This document shows, one piece after another, positions 2,747-33,272 of a stretch of DNA of 37,121 nt. How positions within the stretch are numbered: position 1 is the first letter of the stretch; the number at the start of each line of letters is the position of its first letter. The notes below the pieces were generated by a model. The model searched no databases, was not told the DNA's origin, and was given only the letters and a program-made list of their open reading frames with translations. The position numbers and the translations under genes were made by a program. The stretch is from Acytostelium subglobosum LB1 (taxonomy: Eukaryota; Evosea; Eumycetozoa; Acytosteliales; Acytosteliaceae), in contig NW_012236490.1 of NCBI RefSeq assembly GCF_000787575.1, forward strand, positions 50,891 to 88,011, written 5' to 3'.

Positions 2747-2972
2747 TTCTATCAAACGATCACTTTACCAATCTTATGAACATTTGTAAATTATAATGTT
2801 AATAAATTATTATTAATTATTCGTTTGAGTATCCATATCCATTCTTCCAATCAATCAATCGAAAGACCAATCAAAACTATCACTTTACCAATCTTCTAAA
2901 CAACTATGTTGTAAATTGATGTTAATTAATTAATTAGTTTGAGTATCCATATCAATCCAATCAATCAATGAA
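2747..2972. repeat. Imperfect tandem duplication, about 115-120 bp period
   Basis: The string CACTTTACCAATCTT occurs at 2761 and again at 2881. GTTTGAGTATCCATATC occurs at 2823 and 2937. The sequence between is similar but carries small indels (TTAATTAATT-type runs). The two copies flank and slightly enter the 3' end of the FNIP gene that ends at 2965. Confidence 0.65.
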
Positions 2973-4299
2973 TACCTACTCTAATAATTAATAAAGGTTT
3001 CTTCAACTTTTGTCCAGTATTGGTCGTCTTCTTCTTCTTCTTTTTGATGGATAATGTGATGAGTGGACCTCGTCTTTGATTTTTGTTGATTGTTGAAGTG
3101 GCACATGCTGCAGCCAGTGTATTGTTGTTGAGATGTTTGTTCAAAGGCAACATGTCCTTCCTGTGAAATCCTCCTTCAAAGTTCTGATCCACAACTAGAC
3201 AGTAGTCACTGGACACCATCCTAACATTGATATGCCCACCAGCACGATGTACAAGTCGATATGCAGGTATTAATGGGTGATATGGCATATTGTAATGTTT
3301 GATGAAAGACGCGTAACAATGTTCTATCGTGATGTTGAGGCAGGTGAGCTTGGCCGGAACATCATATATACGCTGTGAATAGAGATAGTCCAATGTGAGC
3401 TGGGAGAGAGCAGAGGGAAGAGTGCCAGGCGTGATCGTCTGTTGGAACAATCTTCCGAAAGATAAATGAGTGATAGCGGGAGGTAAAGACATGGGCGTGA
3501 TCTGGAAGTTGAAGGAGTATCCAAACGTGAGTTTGGTAAGTGATGATGGGAACACCAGTGGCACTATTGGCTGATTGAAGTTCTTGCCAAAGGTCACCAC
3601 TCTGAGTCTAGCAGGTAGCACGCCCATCTCCAACTGTTGATTGAAGTACCATCCAAAGGTAAGCTTGTTGAGCGAGAGGGGCAATGATCCGATTAGCAAT
3701 TGTTTGTTAAAGTGTCGTCCAAAGCTCAGCTTGGTGAGGGCTGGTGGTAGGACCCCAGGGTGCAAGACTTGATTGAAGTTGTTGCCCATGTCAATCTTCT
3801 GAAGTCCCCTCGGTAGGTGACTCGCTACCAACTCCTTGTTGAATGTCTCTCCAAACGTCAGTTTGATCAGACCAGCGGGAAGCAGTCCATCAATGAGAGG
3901 GCGATTGAATCCATATCCAAATACCACTTCTTTATAGTGATCTGGGATCAATCCAGGTCGCAGCAAACCAGTGCCTTGCGGGAAGTACGCACGATCAATG
4001 AATAAGAAGCGTGCCACTGATGCCTGGCGCTTCTTGGCGACGTTGACAAACAATGTCTTGGCGACAGATCGTTGATTGTCTGTTATTGGTGGCAAGTAAT
4101 TAAATGCTGGTATGGTGATTGATCTGTTTGGACGTGGCAGCGCCATCCTTGTGCTATGTGTTGGATTCTTGATCGATCTTATATAATGTTGTTTGATGGA
4201 AAACAATTGACGACATGTCAATGATAGACATACTTTATCAATATTATCATCAACATATTCTACAATCCTTTGTAATACAAGGAATGGAAATTTCTCCAT
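2965..4299 (-). CDS. F-box-like/FNIP-repeat protein
   Basis: A single-exon gene of 444 aa. The first 45 residues (FPFLVLQRIVEYVDDNIDKVCLSL) resemble the degenerate F-box that opens many dictyostelid FNIP proteins. From about residue 125 to 305 come eight or nine repeats of roughly 21-23 residues with the pattern FNxxLxxGxLPxxLxxLxFG. This is the FNIP repeat, a leucine-rich-repeat-like unit, although here the usual IP is mostly LP. A non-repeat C-terminal domain follows, ending in a Lys-rich segment. F-box proteins of this type may act as substrate receptors of SCF ubiquitin ligases; that role is inferred from domain layout only. The family is large and fast-evolving in these amoebae, and two further members or remnants lie in this window. 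Confidence 0.85.
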   Translation of the reverse strand: MEKFPFLVLQRIVEYVDDNIDKVCLSLTCRQLFSIKQHYIRSIKNPTHSTRMALPRPNRSITIPAFNYLPPITDNQRSVAKTLFVNVAKKRQASVARFLFIDRAYFPQGTGLLRPGLIPDHYKEVVFGYGFNRPLIDGLLPAGLIKLTFGETFNKELVASHLPRGLQKIDMGNNFNQVLHPGVLPPALTKLSFGRHFNKQLLIGSLPLSLNKLTFGWYFNQQLEMGVLPARLRVVTFGKNFNQPIVPLVFPSSLTKLTFGYSFNFQITPMSLPPAITHLSFGRLFQQTITPGTLPSALSQLTLDYLYSQRIYDVPAKLTCLNITIEHCYASFIKHYNMPYHPLIPAYRLVHRAGGHINVRMVSSDYCLVVDQNFEGGFHRKDMLPLNKHLNNNTLAAACATSTINKNQRRGPLITLSIKKKKKKTTNTGQKLKKPLLIIRVGIH

Positions 4300-7698: not shown

Positions 7699-8890
7699 TG
7701 TTTTTAAATGTTAAAGTTATTTATATATATATAAGTGTACAAATACAATTACAAGGGATAGTTTAGATAATGAATGGAATGAATGAGATGATAGATTAAT
7801 GCTGAGGTTGGTTAGGACTGACAGCCAGCCATTCAGCCAAGACTTGAAGGCAAGAATGAAGGTGCACCTTTCATTCATTTCACCATCTCTCCACCCCACA
7901 CCACTAACACCATCACCAAAAATGCCTTGCATTTCAAACATTTATTAAAGATCTTTGCACCCCGTCAGACCTATCAAACCCACCCATCACAACAAATATT
8001 AATAATTATTTTTAATGGGTGAATGGGTTTCCAAAAGAAGCCACCAGTTTCTCTCTCTTTCTCTCCCTTGGGTTGGGTTGTTGGTCCATTGTCATTCATT
8101 CATTCACTCTATAATAAATTAATTTTGTACATTGATTGTTGTCAACAACATCATCATCATAAACGACATTGGCTGGCTAGGGCAAGGGTCTATCGTGCTC
8201 TCTACCAATGGTATTCGATCATCAAAGATACGAAGAAGATAAATAACATTGTTGAGTTGATCTCTCGCAAGGAGCAGAGATGTTGGACGACTTGTCCTGG
8301 TCGACACTGTTTGAGAGACCTTTGGCCCATTTGGAAAATGGTAACATCCATCTATCCATCCTCATCCGTTCTGTGTATTCATCTCCACAAGACACATATA
8401 AACACATACATCGTCGTCATGACCACGAGGAAGAGATAGAGAATCAACAAACTCGATACTTTCACACCTTCATAAATATATATATATTTCATGTTTGAAT
8501 TGTGTGTGATGAGTGAGTAAACATGGTCACAACACACATATAAACACCCACCACAGACCAACCAATTTGATTGATTGATTGATTGACTGTGGGTGGTATG
8601 ACTCGAAAGTTCCAACGACAGTTCATTATGTATATATTAGGTTGTCAGCACACATATACACACTAACACCATGACTATTAAATAAATATTATATTAATGT
8701 CAACATGTATGATTGATGATGTTATTATTACCTTGGATGTTTGAACATTGCAATTAATTCATTCATTAATTCAACTTCAAATACTTTGTTATATATTTTT
8801 AATATCAATCACAATATTATCTGTATAAATCACATATTATTATTATTATTATTTATCTCTTTCTCAATTATTATTACTAAATTATATAAT
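7699..8890. promoter_or_regulatory. Divergent intergenic region between actin bundler and protease
   Basis: Nearly 1.2 kb lies between two start codons. Most is AT-rich, with CATT and GATT tetranucleotide runs (8094-8105, 8567-8586) and AT-rich leaders at both ends. A block at about 8165-8340 is clearly GC-richer and has short open frames on both strands, none recognisable. It may be a decayed exon or an unrecognised RNA. No tRNA structure was found by eye. Confidence 0.4.
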
Positions 8891-14470: not shown

Positions 14471-14865
14471 CTGGATCTGTTGACTATAAATATTAATAAT
14501 AAGAATTAGGTTTGTTTGGACTGGAATCCATTATTGTTGAATTTAGAAAACTAGATGATTCCATGGTTTGAATTCATTTGTTGTCGTTCACACATCAATC
14601 AATCAATCAATCAAATAGTCGATAGATTGAAATCATTCTAATCTAATCACTCACTATCTCGAGCATTCTCCAAAGTCCGTAATTTCCTTTGGGAATTGGA
14701 ATCTTTCGCCCAAAAAAGGGTCTTTTGCATCTCCCAATAAAAAAAAATCAAAAAGGTTCGTGTTTTGCAATGTCTAGCGAACTGATCACTCAACTAACAT
14801 TGTCATTCTTCAACTTGTCACTTGATTACACATTTATAAACAACTGTACTACAACAACAACAACA
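14471..14865. other. Intergenic spacer upstream of isovaleryl-CoA dehydrogenase
   Basis: About 395 bases. AT-rich, with an ATCA tetranucleotide run near 14593-14614 and a CAACAACAACAACA leader immediately before the dehydrogenase ATG. The dehydrogenase frame is open further upstream (to 14689), but that extension is not conserved and would bury the mitochondrial presequence. Confidence 0.45.
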
Positions 14866-16287
14866 ATGTTCAGATCAATCATTATCAAGTCAATCAACCC
14901 ATTGACCGCCATCAGCGGATCCACTGGCGGACGCGTTACCGCCATCAGAACCATCTTCAACAACCCAGAGATCATGGGCTTTGATGAATCCCAGATGCAG
15001 CTCCAGGAGACCGTGCGCCAATTCGCCCAAAACGAGCTGGCCCCAATCGCCGCCGATGTCGACAGGAACAACGCCTTCCCAATGCACATGTGGAAGAAGA
15101 TGGGCGACCTCGGTCTGCTTGGCATCACTGCGCCCGCCGAGTACGGTGGTCTGGACATGGGCTACACAGCACACTGCATTGCCATGGAGGAGCTGAGCAG
15201 AGCGTCTGCCTCTGTTGCCTTGAGCTACGGAGCCCACAGCAACCTGTGCGTCAACCAGATCACCAGAAACGGAAACGAGCAACAGAAGCAGAAGTATCTG
15301 CCCAAGCTCATCTCTGGTGACTTTGTCGGTGCCCTTGCAATGTCTGAGCCAAATGCAGGTTCCGATGTTGTCTCCATGAAGACCAACGCCAAGAGAACAG
15401 GTGAGTGAGTGAACTGGCATGCATCATCAATTATCAAACATCATGGCTCGTGCGACTAACTGCTAGCCTCATCATCACTCACTATCAATCAAACAATCTA
15501 GACGGCGGATGGGTTTTGAATGGCACCAAGATGTGGATCACCAATGGCCCAGACGCTGATGTTTTGGTTGTCTACGCCAAGACAGACGTCAACGCAGGAT
15601 CCAAGGGTATCACCGCCTTCTTGATCGAGAAGGGCATGAAGGGATTCACCACTGGACAGAAGCTTGACAAGCTTGGAATGAGAGGCTCCAACACATGTGA
15701 GCTCATCTTTGAGGATTGCTTCGTCCCAGATGCCAATGTTCTCAACCAAGTCGGCAAGGGTGTCAAGGTCCTCATGAGTGGCCTCGACTACGAGCGTCTG
15801 GTCCTCTCTGCTGGTCCATTGGGGTAAGTTGTTAGTTAGTGGCGTGATCATGGCGATCCAGGACAAGTACCTAACCCCAATCAATCTATCAAGTATCATG
15901 CAATCATGCATGGATCAGGTCATTCCATACATTCACCAGCGTGAGCAGTTTGGAAAGAAGATTGGAGAGTTCCAGCTGATGCAAGGAAAGGTCGCAGATA
16001 TGTACACATTGATGAATGCCAGTCGTTCTTACGTGTACAGTGTGGCCAAGTCAGCAGACAAGGGCCTCACCTCGCGTAAGGACTGCGCCGCCGTCATCTT
16101 GTACACCGCCGAGAATGCAACTCAATGCGCTCTGCAGGCCATCCAGACTCTGGGAGGCAATGGCTACATCAACGAGTTCCCAACCGGTCGTCTGTTGCGT
16201 GACGCCAAGTTGTACGAGATTGGCGCCGGCACCAGCGAGATCAGAAGAATGCTCATCGGACGTGAGCTCTTCAGCGAGACAGACTAA
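14866..16287 (+). CDS. ivd: Isovaleryl-CoA dehydrogenase, mitochondrial
   Basis: Three exons, 14866-15400, 15502-15823 and 15894-16287, give 416 aa. The first ~30 residues ([22 protein letters not shown]) form a basic, Ser/Thr-rich amphipathic presequence. The rest is a full acyl-CoA dehydrogenase: N-terminal helical domain, signature 1 in [13 protein letters not shown], the beta domain ([10 protein letters not shown]), and signature 2 in [20 protein letters not shown]. The Glu in [14 protein letters not shown] occupies the unusual helix-G position of the catalytic base that marks isovaleryl-CoA dehydrogenases, rather than the C-terminal position used by medium-chain enzymes. It oxidises isovaleryl-CoA to 3-methylcrotonyl-CoA in leucine breakdown, passing electrons to ETF through FAD. 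Its stop lies only 30 bases from the stop of the convergent gene at 16318. Confidence 0.93.
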
Positions 16288-16317: not shown

Positions 16318-19300
16318 TTATTCATTCTTCTTCTTATTCTTTTGTGTCTGTGTTTGTGTCGGTCGCTGTCGCTGTGGCTGTGTCTGTTGCGACTGTGGCT
16401 GAGGAGTCGGCTCCTGTGCTGTTGTGATGATGTTGGTTCGACCAAGGACGACAACACTGAAGACAACGAATAGATTGATGAGGAAGTAGATGTAGGTGCC
16501 GTACATCTCTGTGGCAAGGTCCTTGAAGAAGCGGAACAGTACCTCATGGGCGATCCAGAACAGGATGATATGGACATAGGGATAGTTGGCCAGGTATAGG
16601 ACGATCGGGAATGTGTAGAAGTACCAGCATAGGAATGGAGTATACAATCCACGTGCAAATGTTATGGCCAGGAAGTTAACAAACAGGAACACAAACACTA
16701 TGGCTCGATCACGTGATTGTTGTTGATGTGTTGTTGATATCCTTCGCCACATCCTAAACAAGAATATGATGATCGTTCCGACGAGGAGACTGATTAGGAT
16801 CATATTGAATGGCGCAGAGTCATACATTATCCTGCCAACAAACTTGTAGTTCCTGGTCTTCTCCCACAACAGTGTTCGGCTAAAGTCATAGGCGATCGAT
16901 ATATATGCCACAGGGTTGGCCATGAGGAATGGCAGTCCGAGTATTATCTATGTTTGATTGATTGTGTGATTGGGTAAGTGAGTCAGTGATCGAGTGATTG
17001 AGTGAGTGGGGAATACATACCTGGACCAAGGCCATAAGAGAGAGGTTGATTATAACACTGTTCAGTGGCATGGTGCGTAAGAATATGAGGAGGATGGCAG
17101 GTGCATAGAAGATATAGTTGAGTTTGAGTGATACAACGAATGAGTAGAGGATGGAGAATGATATGTAGCGTCGATCAATGATGAGAAGTAGTGCAACATG
17201 TAGTAGCAGTGTGGATGGGAAGTCATTGATGACAACGCGAACATTATATAGATGTAGTCTGTTTGATGCTATTGGTAATATGGCCAAGATGGTTGGGAGG
17301 TTGAGTCGATCGCACAGCTTCTTGATCACAACAAAGTTGACAGACTCCATCACTGCCCAGACGAGCTGGAACACTTGGAGCGAGCCATGTCCAGTGATGT
17401 AGTAGAGCAGCGTGTATAGGTACATGAATCCGGCGGGGTAGGTACATGGGCCGTGGTAGTGCATGAAGTGGGAGTAGTCAAAGTCCAAGGATTTCTGGGC
17501 AGAGGGGGCATTGAGCCATTGCTCCACGTGATGGATGTGCGCAGGCCAGTCATTGGTGAATGCCGATTGATAGACTATTTCAAACAGTGATAGGCCAAAG
17601 ATGGCCACGACGCCAATGTAAAAGGCGGGCGTCATCAGCCACTGGAGACGCGACAAGGCCTTGCTGATGAGCCATGACTCTGCACTGTGTGTCAGGCGGA
17701 TGACCACGCCAATGTTGACAAGTATCGCCCCAATGAGCAACATAATGGTGAGGGACAGTCCACTCGGATTGAGAGTGAAGGGTAGTCCTTTAAATTCGAG
17801 CAGAATGGCCGGGTCGGTAGGGTCGGCAGGGTCGGCGTGTAGGGGTGTCAGGGGTGGTGGGAGGTAGAAGCTGTTCTGGCGCGCGGCGTCCTCCATCTTG
17901 GGCACAGTGGGCGCGATCTCTTGATAGAAGTTCAAGTGACCACCTGTGCTCAACAGGATGTAGAAGTGCCTGAAATTGAATATGTCGACGGCGTGAGCGC
18001 GCTCACCTGGCGCCAGGTCAATTGCGCTGTGGAATGAAAATTCGTAGCCCTTCCTGCGGTACACGATCAACTCATTTCTACTTGGGTATTGGACGACAAA
18101 GAGAAGTCCGCTGGAGGAGAAATGCATGAGTGGTGTGTTATCGGCATCGCCCGCATCGATCTTGGGGAATGACTGACGGACTTGCAGTCGTGCACCCATG
18201 GTTGGACTTGTCACAACTATCTTGCAGATGTGCGCCGTATTCTTATCATCCATAACAGAGATGATTATTGGCACGTTGCCAGAGCCTCCTCTTCCAACAT
18301 ATGCAGACACCAACATTGGTTGTTGTAGCATGTGTATGACCTGTGACTGCCACTGACCCTCGCCAACGTGCGAGTAAAGCATGAGCTTGGACGATGTATC
18401 GTTGGCAGAGACGATAATGAATCGATCACTTGACGATGTAAATGTGATATCCTTGATCAAACTTGATGTTGGTTCATGGACAATGTGTGCCCACTCATGG
18501 CCAATGCGTTGTATATACATTGAGTGAGTTGTGGCGTACACAAGAGTCTTTCCATCTGGTGAGACGACCATCTTGCTCAGCAGACCTCCATCCGTCATTT
18601 GAGTGTTTGTGTGATCGATCACCTTTGAGGTGAAGTGCACGCTCTGGTTTAGTGTTCCGGCATGCCACCATATCTCATTGTAGTCGTCCTGGGGGTAGAC
18701 CATCTTGAATGCAGTCCTGTCCATGAGGTTATTGATTGAACTACCTCGGATGGTAGACAGCAGGGGACGTCGATTATCAATGCCATAGACAGACTTGGAC
18801 ATCTCCTCAAACTGATACGTATCGATATATGTTCTTCTAACTTGTTCGCCATCCAATGCAACTGACAAGACTACCAGTTGACCATGACCATTACTACCTG
18901 GTGCCAATATACATTGAGTGGTGTATACATCACCGCTGGCATCATCACCATTATTGAGTGAAGACAATGGATGACCACGCAAGTATAGTTCTCCATAATA
19001 TAGATGAGTCCAATCAGGATACAGATTAGGGTACATCAACACACGATAGAACTTTGCAGTATTATCCATAGAGCAAGACACAATATACTCTGTTGTATTT
19101 GATGTTGAGATTGAGTTGATATCACTACACCATTCATAATGATATTATGTTAGTAATGTAACATTATGATTTGATTGAGTAAGTATAAATAATATATACA
19201 TACTATGAATGATCTTGTGATTGCCATGATAGATTGATTGGTCTGTTGGTTCTCAAACGCCAACTACTAGAGGTACTATAATCAGTGTATTGTTCACGTA

Positions 19301-19445
19301 GAAGTAATCGATCAAGTAATGATCTATCATTTGTATTGTGTTGTTGTTGTTGTTGTTGTTGTTCATTACAACATATATCTGTCACTAGTATAACTATTAA
19401 TAATAACAACAATAGTTGATGTTTATTACTACTATACATAGTCAT
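16318..19445 (-). CDS. ALG3-like (GT58) mannosyltransferase fused to a secreted beta-propeller-like ectodomain
   Basis: Three exons, 19445-19204, 19124-17021 and 16947-16318, encode 991 aa with clean GTATGT...AG introns. Residues 1-26 form a signal peptide, followed by a Gln run. Residues ~75-530 are a beta-rich region with WD-like strands (VSCSMDNTAKFYRV, VVSPDGKTLVYAT, ITFTSSSDRFIIVS) and several N-glycosylation sequons, consistent with a luminal position. A transmembrane helix follows (~536-556). From about residue 575 the protein matches ALG3, the Dol-P-Man alpha-1,3-mannosyltransferase of the N-glycan precursor: NDWPAHIHHVEQWL, YPAGFMYLYTLLYY, VSLKLNYIFYAP, ILGLPFLMANP. It differs at usually fixed sites, with HGPCTYPAG where TGPLVYPAG is common. 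The tail is Gln/Thr/Pro-rich and ends KNKKKNE. ALG3 alone is about 400-450 aa. The join lies inside one 2.1-kb exon with no stop. Confidence 0.82.
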
Positions 19446-20415: not shown

Positions 20416-22269
20416 ATGGCAGTGGATAGAAGACCCACCAAGTCAATGGCACCTGATCAGGCAGCCTCAAGTATGACTAGCAGCAGTAGTAATCAGACCA
20501 CACCAAAGCAACAGTTCCAAAGTGGACCAAAGGTCTGGGGAAGGAACAAAGGTATGTCACTCTCGATCAATCACTCACTCATCACTTCCATTCATTCATT
20601 CAATCAATCACTGATATCATCTTAGAAAGATACCATCAATCAATCACACTCACTCAAACTTGGAACTATTCCACTGATCCAATCACTTCACTCGCTTCAC
20701 TCACTCAATCAATCATACGGTCATACTTGGAATCATTCCAAACCTATCAATCAATCAATCAATCATACTGACACACATACTTCCACCCATTAGATGTTGG
20801 AACTGGAACAGTGATTGGATCATTTCTGATGATGCTGTGCACTCCTTTGCTTGTGATATACTTTTATATTGCATGTAACTCTTACCAATGTTCATTGTCT
20901 GCACCATTGTTTGAATGGTTCAACAACGATCTGTCCTTGACACATCTGATTGATTGGACAATTCGCGAGTTGCCAGTGTTCTCTATGCACGCCGCCAAGA
21001 TCTATATCATCTGGCTGCTGTTCCAAGCCGTGCTCTACACATTCTTGCCAGCCACCATTGGTTATGGCCAGCAGACACCAGCCGGCTACACTCTACCCTA
21101 CAAAGTCAACGGATTGTTGGCATGGGTTGTCAGCCATGTACTGTACTTTGTCGGTGGATACCTTGGCCTGTGGAGTCTGGCGATCGCCCACGACAACTGG
21201 GGTGGTCTGCTGGTGATTGCCAACCTCTATGGCTACTTCCTGACTTTCTTCAGCTACTTCAAGGCGCTGGTGTTCCCATCGCATCCTGAGGACCGCAAGT
21301 TCTCCGGCTCGATCATCTACGACATTGTGTTGGGTGTTGAGTTCAACCCACGCTTTGGCAAGTACTTTGACTTCAAGTTGTTCCACAATGGTCGTCCAGG
21401 AATCGTTGCTTGGACCCTCATCGACATGTCCTTTGCCGCAGCACAATACCAACAAGTTGGCTACATCACCAACTCCATGATCCTGTTGAACATCCTCCAT
21501 GCCACCTACGTTCTAGACTTCTTCTACAATGAGGATTGGTACTTGCGCACCATTGGTATGTTTGATCAATGATTAAGGACCACTGGAATCATTCAATCAC
21601 TCACTCACTAACTAAATCAATCAATCAATCCAGACATTGCCCACGATCACTTTGGATTCATGCTAGCATGGGGAGACTCTGTTTGGTTGCCCTTCATGGT
21701 AAGTACCTCATCACCCTACACTCTGGAATGATTCTAGCCCCTTCGGCCTCAGCCCCACCTAACCCTCTCCTCCCCCAACACCCCTATATTAGTACACTCT
21801 CCAATCACATTACTTGGTGCGTAACCCTATCGACCTGTCCATGCCATACTTCTTGGCAGTGTTGGTGATTGGCCTGTCAGGCTACGTCATCTTCCGCTCG
21901 GTAAACCATCAGAAGGACATTGTCAGAAGGACGAATGGAAAGTGCCAGATCTGGGGCAAGCCAGCCAAAGTCATCAGAACAGAGTTCCTGTGCTCCGATG
22001 GCAAGACCCACCATTCACTGCTGCTCTGCTCCGGCTTCTGGGGCCTCTCTCGCCACTTTAACTACGTTGGTGACTTGTTGATCAGCTCGGCCATGTGTCT
22101 GACCTGTGGCTTTGGCCATCTCCTGCCATACTTCTACATCATCTTCATGACCATCCTATTGCTGCATCGTATCGAGCGTGACCATTCCAGATGCCGTGGC
22201 AAGTACGGCAAGTACTGGGAGATGTACGAGAAGGAGGTACCATGGAAGTTGTGTCCCTACATCTATTAA
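20416..22269 (+). CDS. dhcr7: 7-dehydrocholesterol (sterol delta-7) reductase
   Basis: Four exons, 20416-20551, 20794-21555, 21634-21698 and 21793-22269, give 479 aa. All introns are GTATGT or GTAAGT to AG. The first 45 residues are a soluble Ser/Gln-rich tail. Many transmembrane segments follow (IGSFLMMLCTPLLVIYFY, IIWLLFQAVLYTFL and others). Family motifs are DIAHDHFGFMLAWGDSVWLPF, NHQKDIVRRT and the sterol-reductase signature CSGFWGLSRHFNYVGDLL near the C-terminus, then HLLPYFYIIFMTILLLHR. The FFYNEDWYLRT and HDHFG motifs favour delta-7 over delta-14 reductase. The enzyme is an ER membrane protein that reduces the 7,8 double bond of sterols with NADPH. The exon 3 boundary splits a highly conserved motif, which supports the splice model. 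A polyadenylation signal AATAAA lies at 22320. Confidence 0.93.
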
Positions 22270-22476
22270 GGACCCATGGGCCTTGGGACCTTCTTAGGTC
22301 CACCATTATCTTAAGCGAGAATAAATACTTAATGCTGTTTATTAAGTTGAACCTTGTAGGATTGATCTGCCGTCGAAATGTTCTGGGTAGAGTTGAGTGA
22401 TTGATTGATTGATCGATGAGTGTGGGTGAGTGTGCGCGATAGTGGAAGGTAAAGGGAGGACTTGATGTTAGTGGGA

Positions 22477-28827: not shown

Positions 28828-30273
28828 TCACTTGACACGCTTCTTTGGAGCATTGGCATTCTTGAGATCATCCTCCTTCTTCTTGAGATATTGCTCGAGA
28901 CCTTTGTTCTCAGAGTCCACACGCGATCCAAGTCGCTTGGCCTGCTCCACGTAGGATAGGGACTGCAGCTCAGGATTGAGGTTGACAGCCGCCTTGGTGT
29001 AGGGCACGACATCGGGCTCGTCCATGAACGATTGCCACTTGGCAATATCTGTGATCTCGAATCCAATGTGTGAGCGCAGCAGTGCCAGACCCGCCTGCTC
29101 GGCCTCGGCACGCTTCTTGTCCTCGGCCAACTTGTTGCGCAGATGCTCGTTCTCGTCCAGCGTCTCGGCCAGCTTGAGCTCAAGGATGGCCTTCTCCTTC
29201 TCCGTGCGACTGATGCGCGCCTCCAGGTCGATCTTGGCCATGCGCTCATCGTCGATGCAGCGCAGTGTGTCGTCGATCTTGGACTGCACGTCGGCGATGC
29301 GTTGGTTGCGCTCATCATTCTTCCTGCGGATCTGATTGAGCGCGTCCTCAAGCTCCTTCTTCTGTCGCATGAGCTCCTCGTGGGACATCTTCTCGCCAGC
29401 CAGTGACTTCTCGAGTGCGGCGAGCTTGTTGGCGAGGGCGTTCTGGTTGGCGGCGGCGGCGTCGCGCTCCTCCTTGGCGCGGAACGCGTGGAAGAAGAGC
29501 GAGGTGTACAGGACGATGGAGCGCTCGTCACACTGGCCCTTGGACAGGGCTTCGGCTTCGAGAAGACGGGGGATGCCCAAGTGTTTCTCGGCAAAGTCAA
29601 AGGCGGCGTTCAAACGCTCGATCTGGTCCTTGCCCTGGTAGTCCTGGTATTGGAACAGCGATGGATCGTACTTGTGCGTGAGGGCAAGGTATGCGCAACC
29701 ATCTTTGAAGCTTGCTTTGAAGTTTGTGATGTTGACACCGGCGTATCCATCCGTTGTCTTCTTCACCCAAGCCAACAAACCTTCCTCGGAACTCTTGTCA
29801 CCCTCACTAATCACCTGGATACGGTACTTCCTGTACAATGTCCAGAGGAATCCAAGAATCATCTTCTTGTTATTGTCAACAAACTCTGATCATTTTTGAT
29901 TGATTGATTGAGTGATTGAGTTTGGGTTAGTTTTTGATCAGTGATTGGAATCATTCCAAGAGTGATCATGATGAGTGATTGACATACCCTCGGCAGCGAC
30001 ACCATGTATCTTGACACCAAGGTCATGATCGACAAAGAGCATGGCAAGATGGAGGTTTTGGACACAGAGGATTCTAGTCTTGGGGTCGAGGTCAAACTTC
30101 TTTGGGAATCTCTTTCCAGAGACACTCTCAAGGAAATAGATTAACCTCACTCCATTACTCAGGTCAACTGATACATCCTTAATCTTTTGAACATTTCCAC
30201 GTTTATCCAATACTGAATTGACCCATGATGTGAAGGCCATCTCCTGTACTCTTTCCCATTCTCTATCAGACAT
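28828..30273 (-). CDS. Cortexillin (actin-bundling, cytokinesis)
   Basis: Two exons, 30273-29988 and 29885-28828, join across a 102-nt intron to give 447 aa, close to the known 441-444 aa. Two calponin-homology domains fill residues ~10-230: [14 protein letters not shown] and [14 protein letters not shown] in the first, [13 protein letters not shown] and [16 protein letters not shown] in the second. A long heptad coiled coil follows (~235-365: [33 protein letters not shown]), which forms a parallel dimer in the family. The C-terminus ends in a basic cluster (ANAPKKRVK) at the position of the phosphoinositide- and actin-binding tail. Cortexillins bundle antiparallel actin filaments at the cell cortex and cleavage furrow. 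Whether this is the I or II type cannot be decided from memory. Confidence 0.93.
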
Positions 30274-31676: not shown

Positions 31677-33272
31677 ATGAGAACCATTCAAATAGTGTTG
31701 ATCGTTGCCATGTTGGCCTTTATGGCCACCGCTGCCAACAGCTCAAAGAATGTTGTTGAGGACATTCCAATTCAAGGCGCTGACTGTGCCATCTGCTCAT
31801 ACTTGGTTGGAAAGGTCGAGCACTACGTTGCCGGCAATTTGACTGAGAAGGAGATTATCAAGAACCTCGTCCACGACTGCTCTCTGTTGGGCCACGCTGC
31901 CCTCGAGTGCAAGCTGGCCGTCGAGGCTGAGGGACCCTCCATCATCAACAAGGTCATCCAGAAGGAGAGCCCAACAGCTATCTGCATCGACCTCGGAAAG
32001 TGCAACGCTACCATGACCGCCAACATCGCTGCCGCCGCCTCTGCCAAGCTCTCCAAGGAGGCTCGCAAGCTCAAGGGTGAGATCAAGTGCACCCTCTGCA
32101 ACCACATGGTCGGCATTGTTGAGGCTGGCGTCGAGGGCAACCTCACCCAGGCCACCATCGAGAGCGACCTCTACAGCTACTGCGCTGCCCTCGGTGACAT
32201 CAAGATCATCTGTGACGATCTGGTCAACATCTACGCCCCACGCATCATCGCCTCGGTCGAGAACAAGACCAACCCACTTGCCATCTGCATCGACATTGGT
32301 CTGTGCACTGCCACTGACGCCGCCACCGTCGTCAAGAAGGAGTCCAAGAAGCCAGCCGCCGTCGTCGTCGCCAAGAAGGTCGGCGGAGACACTGAGTGCT
32401 CCCTCTGCTCATACCTCGTCAGCCGCGTCGAGGTCCACATCGCCGAGAACATGACCGCCCACGAGATCCTCGACAAGTTGAAGGCCGACTGCAAGGAGTA
32501 CGCCGGAAAGGAGTCTGAGGAGTGCAAGATCATGGTCACCCTCTACGGACCAAAGATCATCGCCAAGATCGAGGCCGACGGCAACCCAATCGACGTCTGC
32601 ACCGACATCCACATGTGCCGCAACTCCACCGCTTCCATCATGAAGCAGCTCGCTGCTGCCAAGAAGGTCGGAGGTGAGATCGAGTGCACCGTGTGCAGCC
32701 TCATCGTCAACCGCGCCGAGAGCTACTTCCACCTGAAGCTCAACGAGACTGAGATCATCAGCCGTCTTGAGAAGGACTGCGCCTCCATCTTTGGCAGCCC
32801 AACCGACAAGCTCTGCGACTACATCGTTGCCTCATACGGCGAGAAGATCATCCAGAAGCTCCAGCGCGACGAGGACCCCCTCGTTGTCTGCCACGAGGCC
32901 GGTATGTGCAGCGCCAACATGACCGCCACCGCCACCAAGTGCACCAAGTCTGCCAAGTCTGCCTCCAAGAAGGTCGGCAAGATCACCCCAGACTGCATGC
33001 TCTGTGAGGTCATGGTCGGCAAGATCGACGCCTCCATCAAGCACAAGGTCAACGAGACCCAGATCCTCGACGACTTGTTGGCCGACTGTGCCACCCAGGG
33101 CTTCTTCAAGGGCGAGTGCGAGCACATCGTCAACCTCTACGGACCAGCCATCTTTGACCGTCTCAACTCTGGCATGAGCCCACTCGTTGTCTGCAAGGAT
33201 GTTGGTCTGTGCACCGACTCCAAGAACACCAAGAAGGCCAACAAGAGATTCTCTGCCACCCTTGCCCACTAA
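31677..33272 (+). CDS. Secreted/lysosomal protein with five saposin B domains
   Basis: A single exon of 531 aa. Residues 1-20 form a signal peptide (TIQIVLIVAMLAFMATAA). Five saposin B-type domains follow at about 37-109, 138-210, 241-314, 337-411 and 440-512. Each has six cysteines in the order CxxC, C, C, C, C, and most have an N-glycosylation sequon (such as GNLT or LNET). Linkers are short, Lys/Ala-rich and similar to each other (KKVGG), which suggests proteolytic release of each unit, as for prosaposin and amoebapore-type precursors. Saposin domains bind or perturb lipids in the lysosome. Whether these units help lipid degradation or attack bacterial membranes cannot be told. Codons are strongly GC-ending, implying high expression. 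AATAAA lies at about 33317. Confidence 0.9.
   Translation: MRTIQIVLIVAMLAFMATAANSSKNVVEDIPIQGADCAICSYLVGKVEHYVAGNLTEKEIIKNLVHDCSLLGHAALECKLAVEAEGPSIINKVIQKESPTAICIDLGKCNATMTANIAAAASAKLSKEARKLKGEIKCTLCNHMVGIVEAGVEGNLTQATIESDLYSYCAALGDIKIICDDLVNIYAPRIIASVENKTNPLAICIDIGLCTATDAATVVKKESKKPAAVVVAKKVGGDTECSLCSYLVSRVEVHIAENMTAHEILDKLKADCKEYAGKESEECKIMVTLYGPKIIAKIEADGNPIDVCTDIHMCRNSTASIMKQLAAAKKVGGEIECTVCSLIVNRAESYFHLKLNETEIISRLEKDCASIFGSPTDKLCDYIVASYGEKIIQKLQRDEDPLVVCHEAGMCSANMTATATKCTKSAKSASKKVGKITPDCMLCEVMVGKIDASIKHKVNETQILDDLLADCATQGFFKGECEHIVNLYGPAIFDRLNSGMSPLVVCKDVGLCTDSKNTKKANKRFSATLAH

Follow-up and report, generated by a model that had tools for sequence, protein, structure and literature searches.

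A strongly diverged ALG3 paralogue of Acytostelium subglobosum that most likely forms a single gene with a predicted luminal domain

ALG3 (GT58) is the Dol-P-Man:Man5GlcNAc2-PP-Dol alpha-1,3-mannosyltransferase. It is described as having 12 helices, with a dilysine motif at its cytosolic end, and as clearly homologous to PIGM (PMC6801728). Gpi14, the fungal PIG-M, works together with a second protein, Pbn1, an ER glycoprotein of type I whose luminal part is a beta domain and whose single helix anchors it on Gpi14; the two together form the luminal-side catalytic channel of GPI mannosyltransferase I (PMC12653191). The complex of PIGU and PIGT resembles that of Gpi14 and Pbn1, and in PIGU the DxD motif is replaced by SSW (PMC12653191). 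PIGU and the luminal beta protein PIGT form a platform in the GPI transamidase, and the fold of PIGT is described as a half-rib cage plus a beta sandwich (PMC9098846).

The window (the whole stretch of DNA that was analysed, 37,121 nucleotides of A. subglobosum LB1) contains a gene on its minus strand in which parts comparable to these lie in one chain. The gene has three exons (19445–19204, 19124–17021 and 16947–16318; 242, 2104 and 630 nt), and its CDS of 2976 nt, stop included, encodes a protein of 991 residues. Exon 1 (19204–19445) carries residues 1–80 and two bases of codon 81; it opens with GAAAA-ATG and contains a signal-peptide-like hydrophobic stretch (residues 9–27), a Q-rich stretch and the onset of the predicted luminal domain. 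Intron 1 (19125–19203; 79 nt, 78% AT) runs from GTATGT to GTGTAG. Exon 2 (17021–19124) is free of stops over its entire 2104 nt and encodes the remainder of the predicted luminal domain, a helix and the first ALG3-like half up to residue 782. Within it, residues 82–535 (17762–19123), which comprise the domain and a Pro/Asp-rich linker, are predicted to be luminal, and the extra transmembrane helix (17702–17758) corresponds to about residues 537–555. Intron 2 (16948–17020; 73 nt, GTATGT...ACATAG) interrupts the ALG3-like part, the second half of which is encoded by exon 3 (16318–16947; residues 783–991), ending with KKNE and the stop codon. An acyl-CoA dehydrogenase gene on the plus strand, with a stop that ends at 16287, converges on the fusion gene, and 30 bp separate the two stop codons.

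The coding state of the join was analysed over the part of exon 2 that precedes it. Residues 82–530 contained no stop in 449 codons, whereas 2000 Markov simulations at matched composition gave 19.2 on average and never fewer than 5; their codon score, based on a table built from four neighbouring open frames, was the highest among the six frames. The linker and helix (residues 486–582) were likewise free of stops and scored highest of the six frames. No GTAAG or GTATG donor (GTA[AT]G) was identified on the minus strand in the scanned region 17600–18000. The first ATG is preceded by an A-rich leader that is missing from M542 and M578 near the join. Because the frame is stop-free and scores best, strict donors are absent nearby and only the first ATG has the A-rich leader, the ALG3-like part and the N-terminal domain most likely constitute a real, intact-looking single gene. 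An earlier note on this DNA had placed a one-gene fusion at these coordinates and on this strand, with an uninterrupted 2.1-kb exon across the join, and our analysis agrees with it. Exon 1, with its 81 residues including the signal-like start, is less firm, as its basis is splice sites, frame and start context and the gene's first 180 codons are low in GC3; the signal peptide named in the earlier note was thus recovered as a hydrophobic start and shares the lesser firmness of its exon.

The C-terminal half belongs to the ALG3 family, as had been proposed. It matched Pfam PF05208 (ALG3) with 180 bits against a cut-off of 23.6 (E 1.2e-52) over profile positions 14–351 of 358, and the solved Alg3 chain 9s6r, which we take to be S. 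cerevisiae Alg3, matched the window protein at 3e-22. A search of the genome for ALG3 led to three places: two are stretches of the window gene itself (93.3 and 76.7 bits), and the third is an uninterrupted frame elsewhere (C50:1188791-1189855) that scored 475 bits, so the best ALG3 match of this genome is not the window gene. A three-way alignment gave 96/316 identities between the window protein and this ALG3 of its own genome, 84/328 between the window protein and 9s6r, and 114/330 between own ALG3 and 9s6r. Since the separate ALG3 scores better and the window copy is only 29–30% identical to it, the window gene is, judged by its sequence, a strongly diverged paralogue beside an ordinary ALG3; the earlier note had raised this status and named a search for a separate canonical ALG3 as the check. 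Own ALG3 and 9s6r are closer to each other than to the window copy, which is therefore the diverged one. Viral contigs searched with a two-sequence ALG3 alignment gave no matches.

A second Alg3 in dictyostelids is already on record, as Table 1 of PMC4973528 lists two Alg3 homologues each in Dictyostelium discoideum, Polysphondylium pallidum and Emiliania huxleyi, whereas Acanthamoeba is given one and Entamoeba lacks any; the available part of that paper makes no comment on the domains of the second dictyostelid copy. The paralogue as such is consequently probably not new, and, given that its genome is that of a dictyostelid, the window gene probably belongs to this second group. The combination of an ALG3 relative with a predicted ER-luminal domain does look unusual. 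A literature search, in which subscription journals were mostly missing, returned no paper on an ALG3 fused to a luminal domain. Among the matches listed, no title named an ALG3 structure.

Comparison of the active-site positions showed a mixture of retention and change. Own ALG3 and 9s6r are identical at 114 columns, among them an artificial one in which M1 is paired with the initial residue of the 9s6r fragment. The window protein keeps 52 of these columns; at 205 other columns it agrees with own ALG3 in 44 and with 9s6r in 28. When only polar columns (D, E, K, R, H, N, Q, S, T) common to own ALG3 and 9s6r were considered, 20/35 were kept and 15/35 changed. The retained features are D606, D630, GP, YPAG, R703, H705, N714, D715, K748 and N750, and also R806, N815, R881, W890, Y891 and E917. 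Changed positions are T89 (H638 in the window protein), V93 (T642), R164 (V711), W265 (K812), W269 (Y816) and H349-Y350-Q351 (Y-T-P). The altered signature HGPCTYPAG, to which the earlier note had drawn attention, is present at residues 638–646, and the segment FSRSLHYQF of own ALG3 and 9s6r reads FARGLYTPF at residues 879–887, with R881 retained and H-Y-Q altered. In the ExD motif, which was compared with own ALG3 only, the second acidic residue is retained (D606) and the first is N605 or a gap, leaving ND; the 9s6r fragment used begins after this motif.

The equivalent residues of Gpi14 and PIG-M give these changes some meaning. The proposed catalytic base of Gpi14 is D39, which matches human D51, and in human PIG-M both Asp residues of the motif are reported to be indispensable (PMC12653191). 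In our own reading of that paper D39 would be the second Asp of the DxD motif, and D606 aligns to this second-Asp place. A luminal Rx4-14P motif has been linked to donor binding (PMC6801728, section 2.4), and R881 and P896 fit it, as Rx14P, in the same way as in 9s6r. Of the two required acidic residues the window protein thus retains one and has lost the other. On balance we lean, modestly, towards an active enzyme whose site has changed rather than an inactive scaffold of the PIGU kind.

The fusion protein begins with the signal-peptide-like start, continues with about 508 hydrophilic residues and a single helix (537–555), and proceeds to the divergent multipass part of the ALG3 family and the C-terminal KKNE, a dilysine motif (KKxx). 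It thus shares with ALG3 the PF05208 match, YPAG, some of the conserved polar positions, KKxx and Rx14P, and differs from it in the signal-like start, the domain of about 500 residues and the helix placed in front, as well as in its low identity to own ALG3, the reduced ExD motif and the altered HYQ and other signature positions. The single helix ahead of the ALG3 part had been noted earlier and was recovered by hydropathy. Simple hydropathy found eight segments after the extra helix compared with 10 in own ALG3, where 12 are expected for ALG3; either the method undercounts helices or the true numbers differ between the two proteins, and with eight segments against 10 the topology is left unproven by hydropathy. 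If the first domain is luminal, one helix returns the chain and the number of ALG3 helices is even, the catalytic loops and the KKxx end would lie on their proper sides. The topology put forward in the earlier note, in which the first domain would reside in the ER lumen, the helix would lead back to the cytosol and the ALG3 part would begin there, is consistent by inference, and the KKxx end agrees with it. The N-glycan sequons pointed out in the earlier note are at chance level, as residues 28–530 contain four compared with 4.0 expected from shuffles; they were dropped as support for glycosylation or a luminal location.

The fold of the first domain was approached through its resemblance to propeller families. 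Pfam reported a WD40-like repeat at residues 78–107 with 25.4 bits (2e-5) when residues 70–486 were the query and with 23.8 bits (6.1e-5) when residues 1–565 were used, both below the 27-bit cut-off. Its coordinates, derived from the exon lengths, are 19046–19124 on the minus strand for the exon 2 part, with the first residues at 19204–19214 in exon 1. A WD profile made from the seven repeats of G-beta-1 gave its best stretch at residues 78–110 (9.4 bits, a score that none of 300 shuffles attained); the runner-up stretch of the domain scored -2.9 bits and was reached by 6 of 300. Further along, at about residues 255–322, weak matches to PD40 and to the methylamine dehydrogenase heavy chain were obtained (Pfam, NCBIfam), the NCBIfam match to the latter having an E of 0.003 and 16.4 bits, below its cut-off of 454. 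When five sub-stretches of the domain were scanned singly, two gave weak propeller matches among others, two matched no family and one gave a weak tubulin match only. Solved structures searched by sequence with residues 1–565 yielded two weak matches to U5-40K, a WD protein (E 0.26 and 0.42). Relatives of the domain in its own genome amounted, besides itself, to one match at E 0.054, and none were found in viral contigs.

The domain is thus like WD40 propeller proteins in its one WD-like repeat and the weak propeller-family matches further on, and differs from them in scoring below the Pfam cut-off, in having further repeats that are unrecognisable by sequence and in its predicted luminal location. 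For a WD40 propeller, a Pfam score above the cut-off and several repeats would be expected; we found one stretch below the cut-off and a second-best stretch below zero bits. The beta-rich, propeller-like fold of the earlier note was therefore not recovered. With one WD-like repeat recognisable, and this below the cut-off, a propeller fold is a plausible candidate. PIGT, given the fold described for it (PMC9098846), was dropped as a precedent for a propeller.

None of the four GPI-pathway families considered was listed for the window protein by Pfam at E <= 10. This applies to PIG-M/Gpi14 (PF05007), for which the genome has matches on C30; to PIG-X/Pbn1 (PF08320), considered for the first domain, with a match on C43; and to PIG-T (PF04113) and PIG-U (PF06728), with matches on C37 and C45, respectively. 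Since the genome has separate genes for PIG-T and PIG-U, the window protein is not either of these subunits. In architecture it is comparable to Pbn1/PIG-X with Gpi14/PIG-M, where a 12-helix GT-C mannosyltransferase of a family homologous to ALG3 is accompanied by a luminal domain of type I and its single helix, whereas those are two proteins and the window has one chain. PIGT and PIGU also combine a luminal protein with a GT-C-like membrane protein that has an altered DxD site; in contrast to PIGU, the window protein keeps half of the acidic motif. The PIG-X match (C43:78062-78454) lies within an open frame of 582 residues, possibly another extended subunit. This length is large for PIG-X.

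Based on these comparisons, we propose that the gene encodes an ER mannosyltransferase to which a luminal auxiliary subunit is covalently joined, in an architecture similar to that of Pbn1-Gpi14, and which would use dolichol-phosphate-mannose (Dol-P-Man) as donor and an acceptor different from that of ALG3; we consider the chances of this explanation to be about even. One gene would give rise to a type-I-like piece (signal, luminal domain of about 500 residues with at least one WD-like repeat, helix) followed by a diverged GT-C piece of the ALG3 family. The luminal domain would serve as a built-in auxiliary subunit that packs over the luminal face and active site of the GT-C part. There it may assist in the binding or placement of the acceptor or of a partner protein, the role that Pbn1 plays for Gpi14 as a subunit of its own. 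For the earlier note's idea of a glycan-quality sensor coupled to a mannosyltransferase, the analysis turned up nothing that speaks for or against it. The built-in subunit is proposed because parts comparable to Pbn1 and Gpi14 sit in one chain; it is a likeness of architecture, and PIG-X/Pbn1 is absent from the Pfam matches. The continuous frame, the strong PF05208 match, the kept D606, R881 and polar positions and the KKNE end count in favour of this explanation. The lost first acidic residue of ExD, the changes of HYQ to Y-T-P, T89 to H638 and R164 to V711, the 15 altered polar columns, the lack of relatives of the luminal domain in its own genome, beyond the match at E 0.054, and in the viral contigs, and the missing PIG-X match count against it.

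Much of the same evidence bears on a reading that we regard as possible but doubtful, namely that the ALG3-like half has lost catalysis and acts as a scaffold, like PIGU in the GPI transamidase, and that the luminal domain does the work by binding a partner or a glycolipid. The loss of the first ExD residue and the changes at HYQ, R164 and the 15 polar columns would be expected of such a scaffold, and PIGU provides the precedent, both in its SSW (PMC12653191) and in its platform with PIGT (PMC9098846). However, a dead scaffold fits less well with the retention of D606, R881 and 20 of the 35 polar columns, with the 52 of 114 common columns that are kept compared with agreement with own ALG3 in 44 of 205 others, or with the presence of separate PIG-T and PIG-U genes in the genome. 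Alternatively, the protein could form the same bond as ALG3, the first luminal alpha-1,3-mannose on dolichol-linked Man5GlcNAc2, but at a different stage of life or with truncated precursors as its substrate. It is of the same family, has a like C-terminal ER signal and keeps part of the active-site positions; yet a well-conserved ALG3 is present, and positions common to own ALG3 and 9s6r are altered in the window copy, which makes this improbable.

That two adjacent genes have been read as one, through the gene model or the assembly, is in our estimation very improbable. Such an artefact could be suspected from GC3, which is 0.49 in residues 28–530 and 0.61 in residues 583–955, and which in the first 180 codons is 0.13–0.35 compared with 0.47–0.73 further on and 0.65–0.66 in neighbouring frames. 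This shift, however, occurs near residue 180, inside the first domain and away from the join, which is spanned by one stop-free exon whose linker and helix score best in the same frame, with no A-rich leader at M542 or M578 and no strict donor nearby.

Returning to the enzyme with a built-in subunit, Gpi14 depends on Pbn1 as a separate partner on the luminal side, and PIGU, itself GT-C-like, is paired with a luminal protein as well. If nature has made a one-chain version within the ALG3 family, it would offer a simple way to learn the role of luminal partners. The fusion protein may also point to a mannose modification specific to social amoebae. We can further speculate, while judging it unlikely, that dictyostelids share a second, so far unrecognised class of Dol-P-Man mannosyltransferase in which the luminal subunit that selects the substrate forms one chain with the GT-C enzyme and the acceptor is a protein, a GPI-like or another glycolipid rather than the N-glycan precursor. 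The laboratory model D. discoideum, listed with two Alg3 homologues (PMC4973528), would allow these ideas to be tested.

The window contains several other features. At 31677–33272 the plus strand encodes a protein of 531 residues in which five SapB_2 (saposin B type) stretches occur, and a FNIP-repeat protein (2965–4299) and a cortexillin (28828–29859) are encoded on the minus strand; FNIP-repeat proteins and cortexillin are typical of dictyostelids. A TCAA unit is repeated across the window, with 33 matches to TCAATCAATCA, overlaps counted, compared with 0.13 expected; examples are found at 20600–20765, 14595–14613, 8568–8586 and 22398–22412. By eye these repeats lie largely between coding stretches and are often in sense orientation to the gene close by; TCAA/TCAC units are also abundant in intron 2 of the fusion gene.
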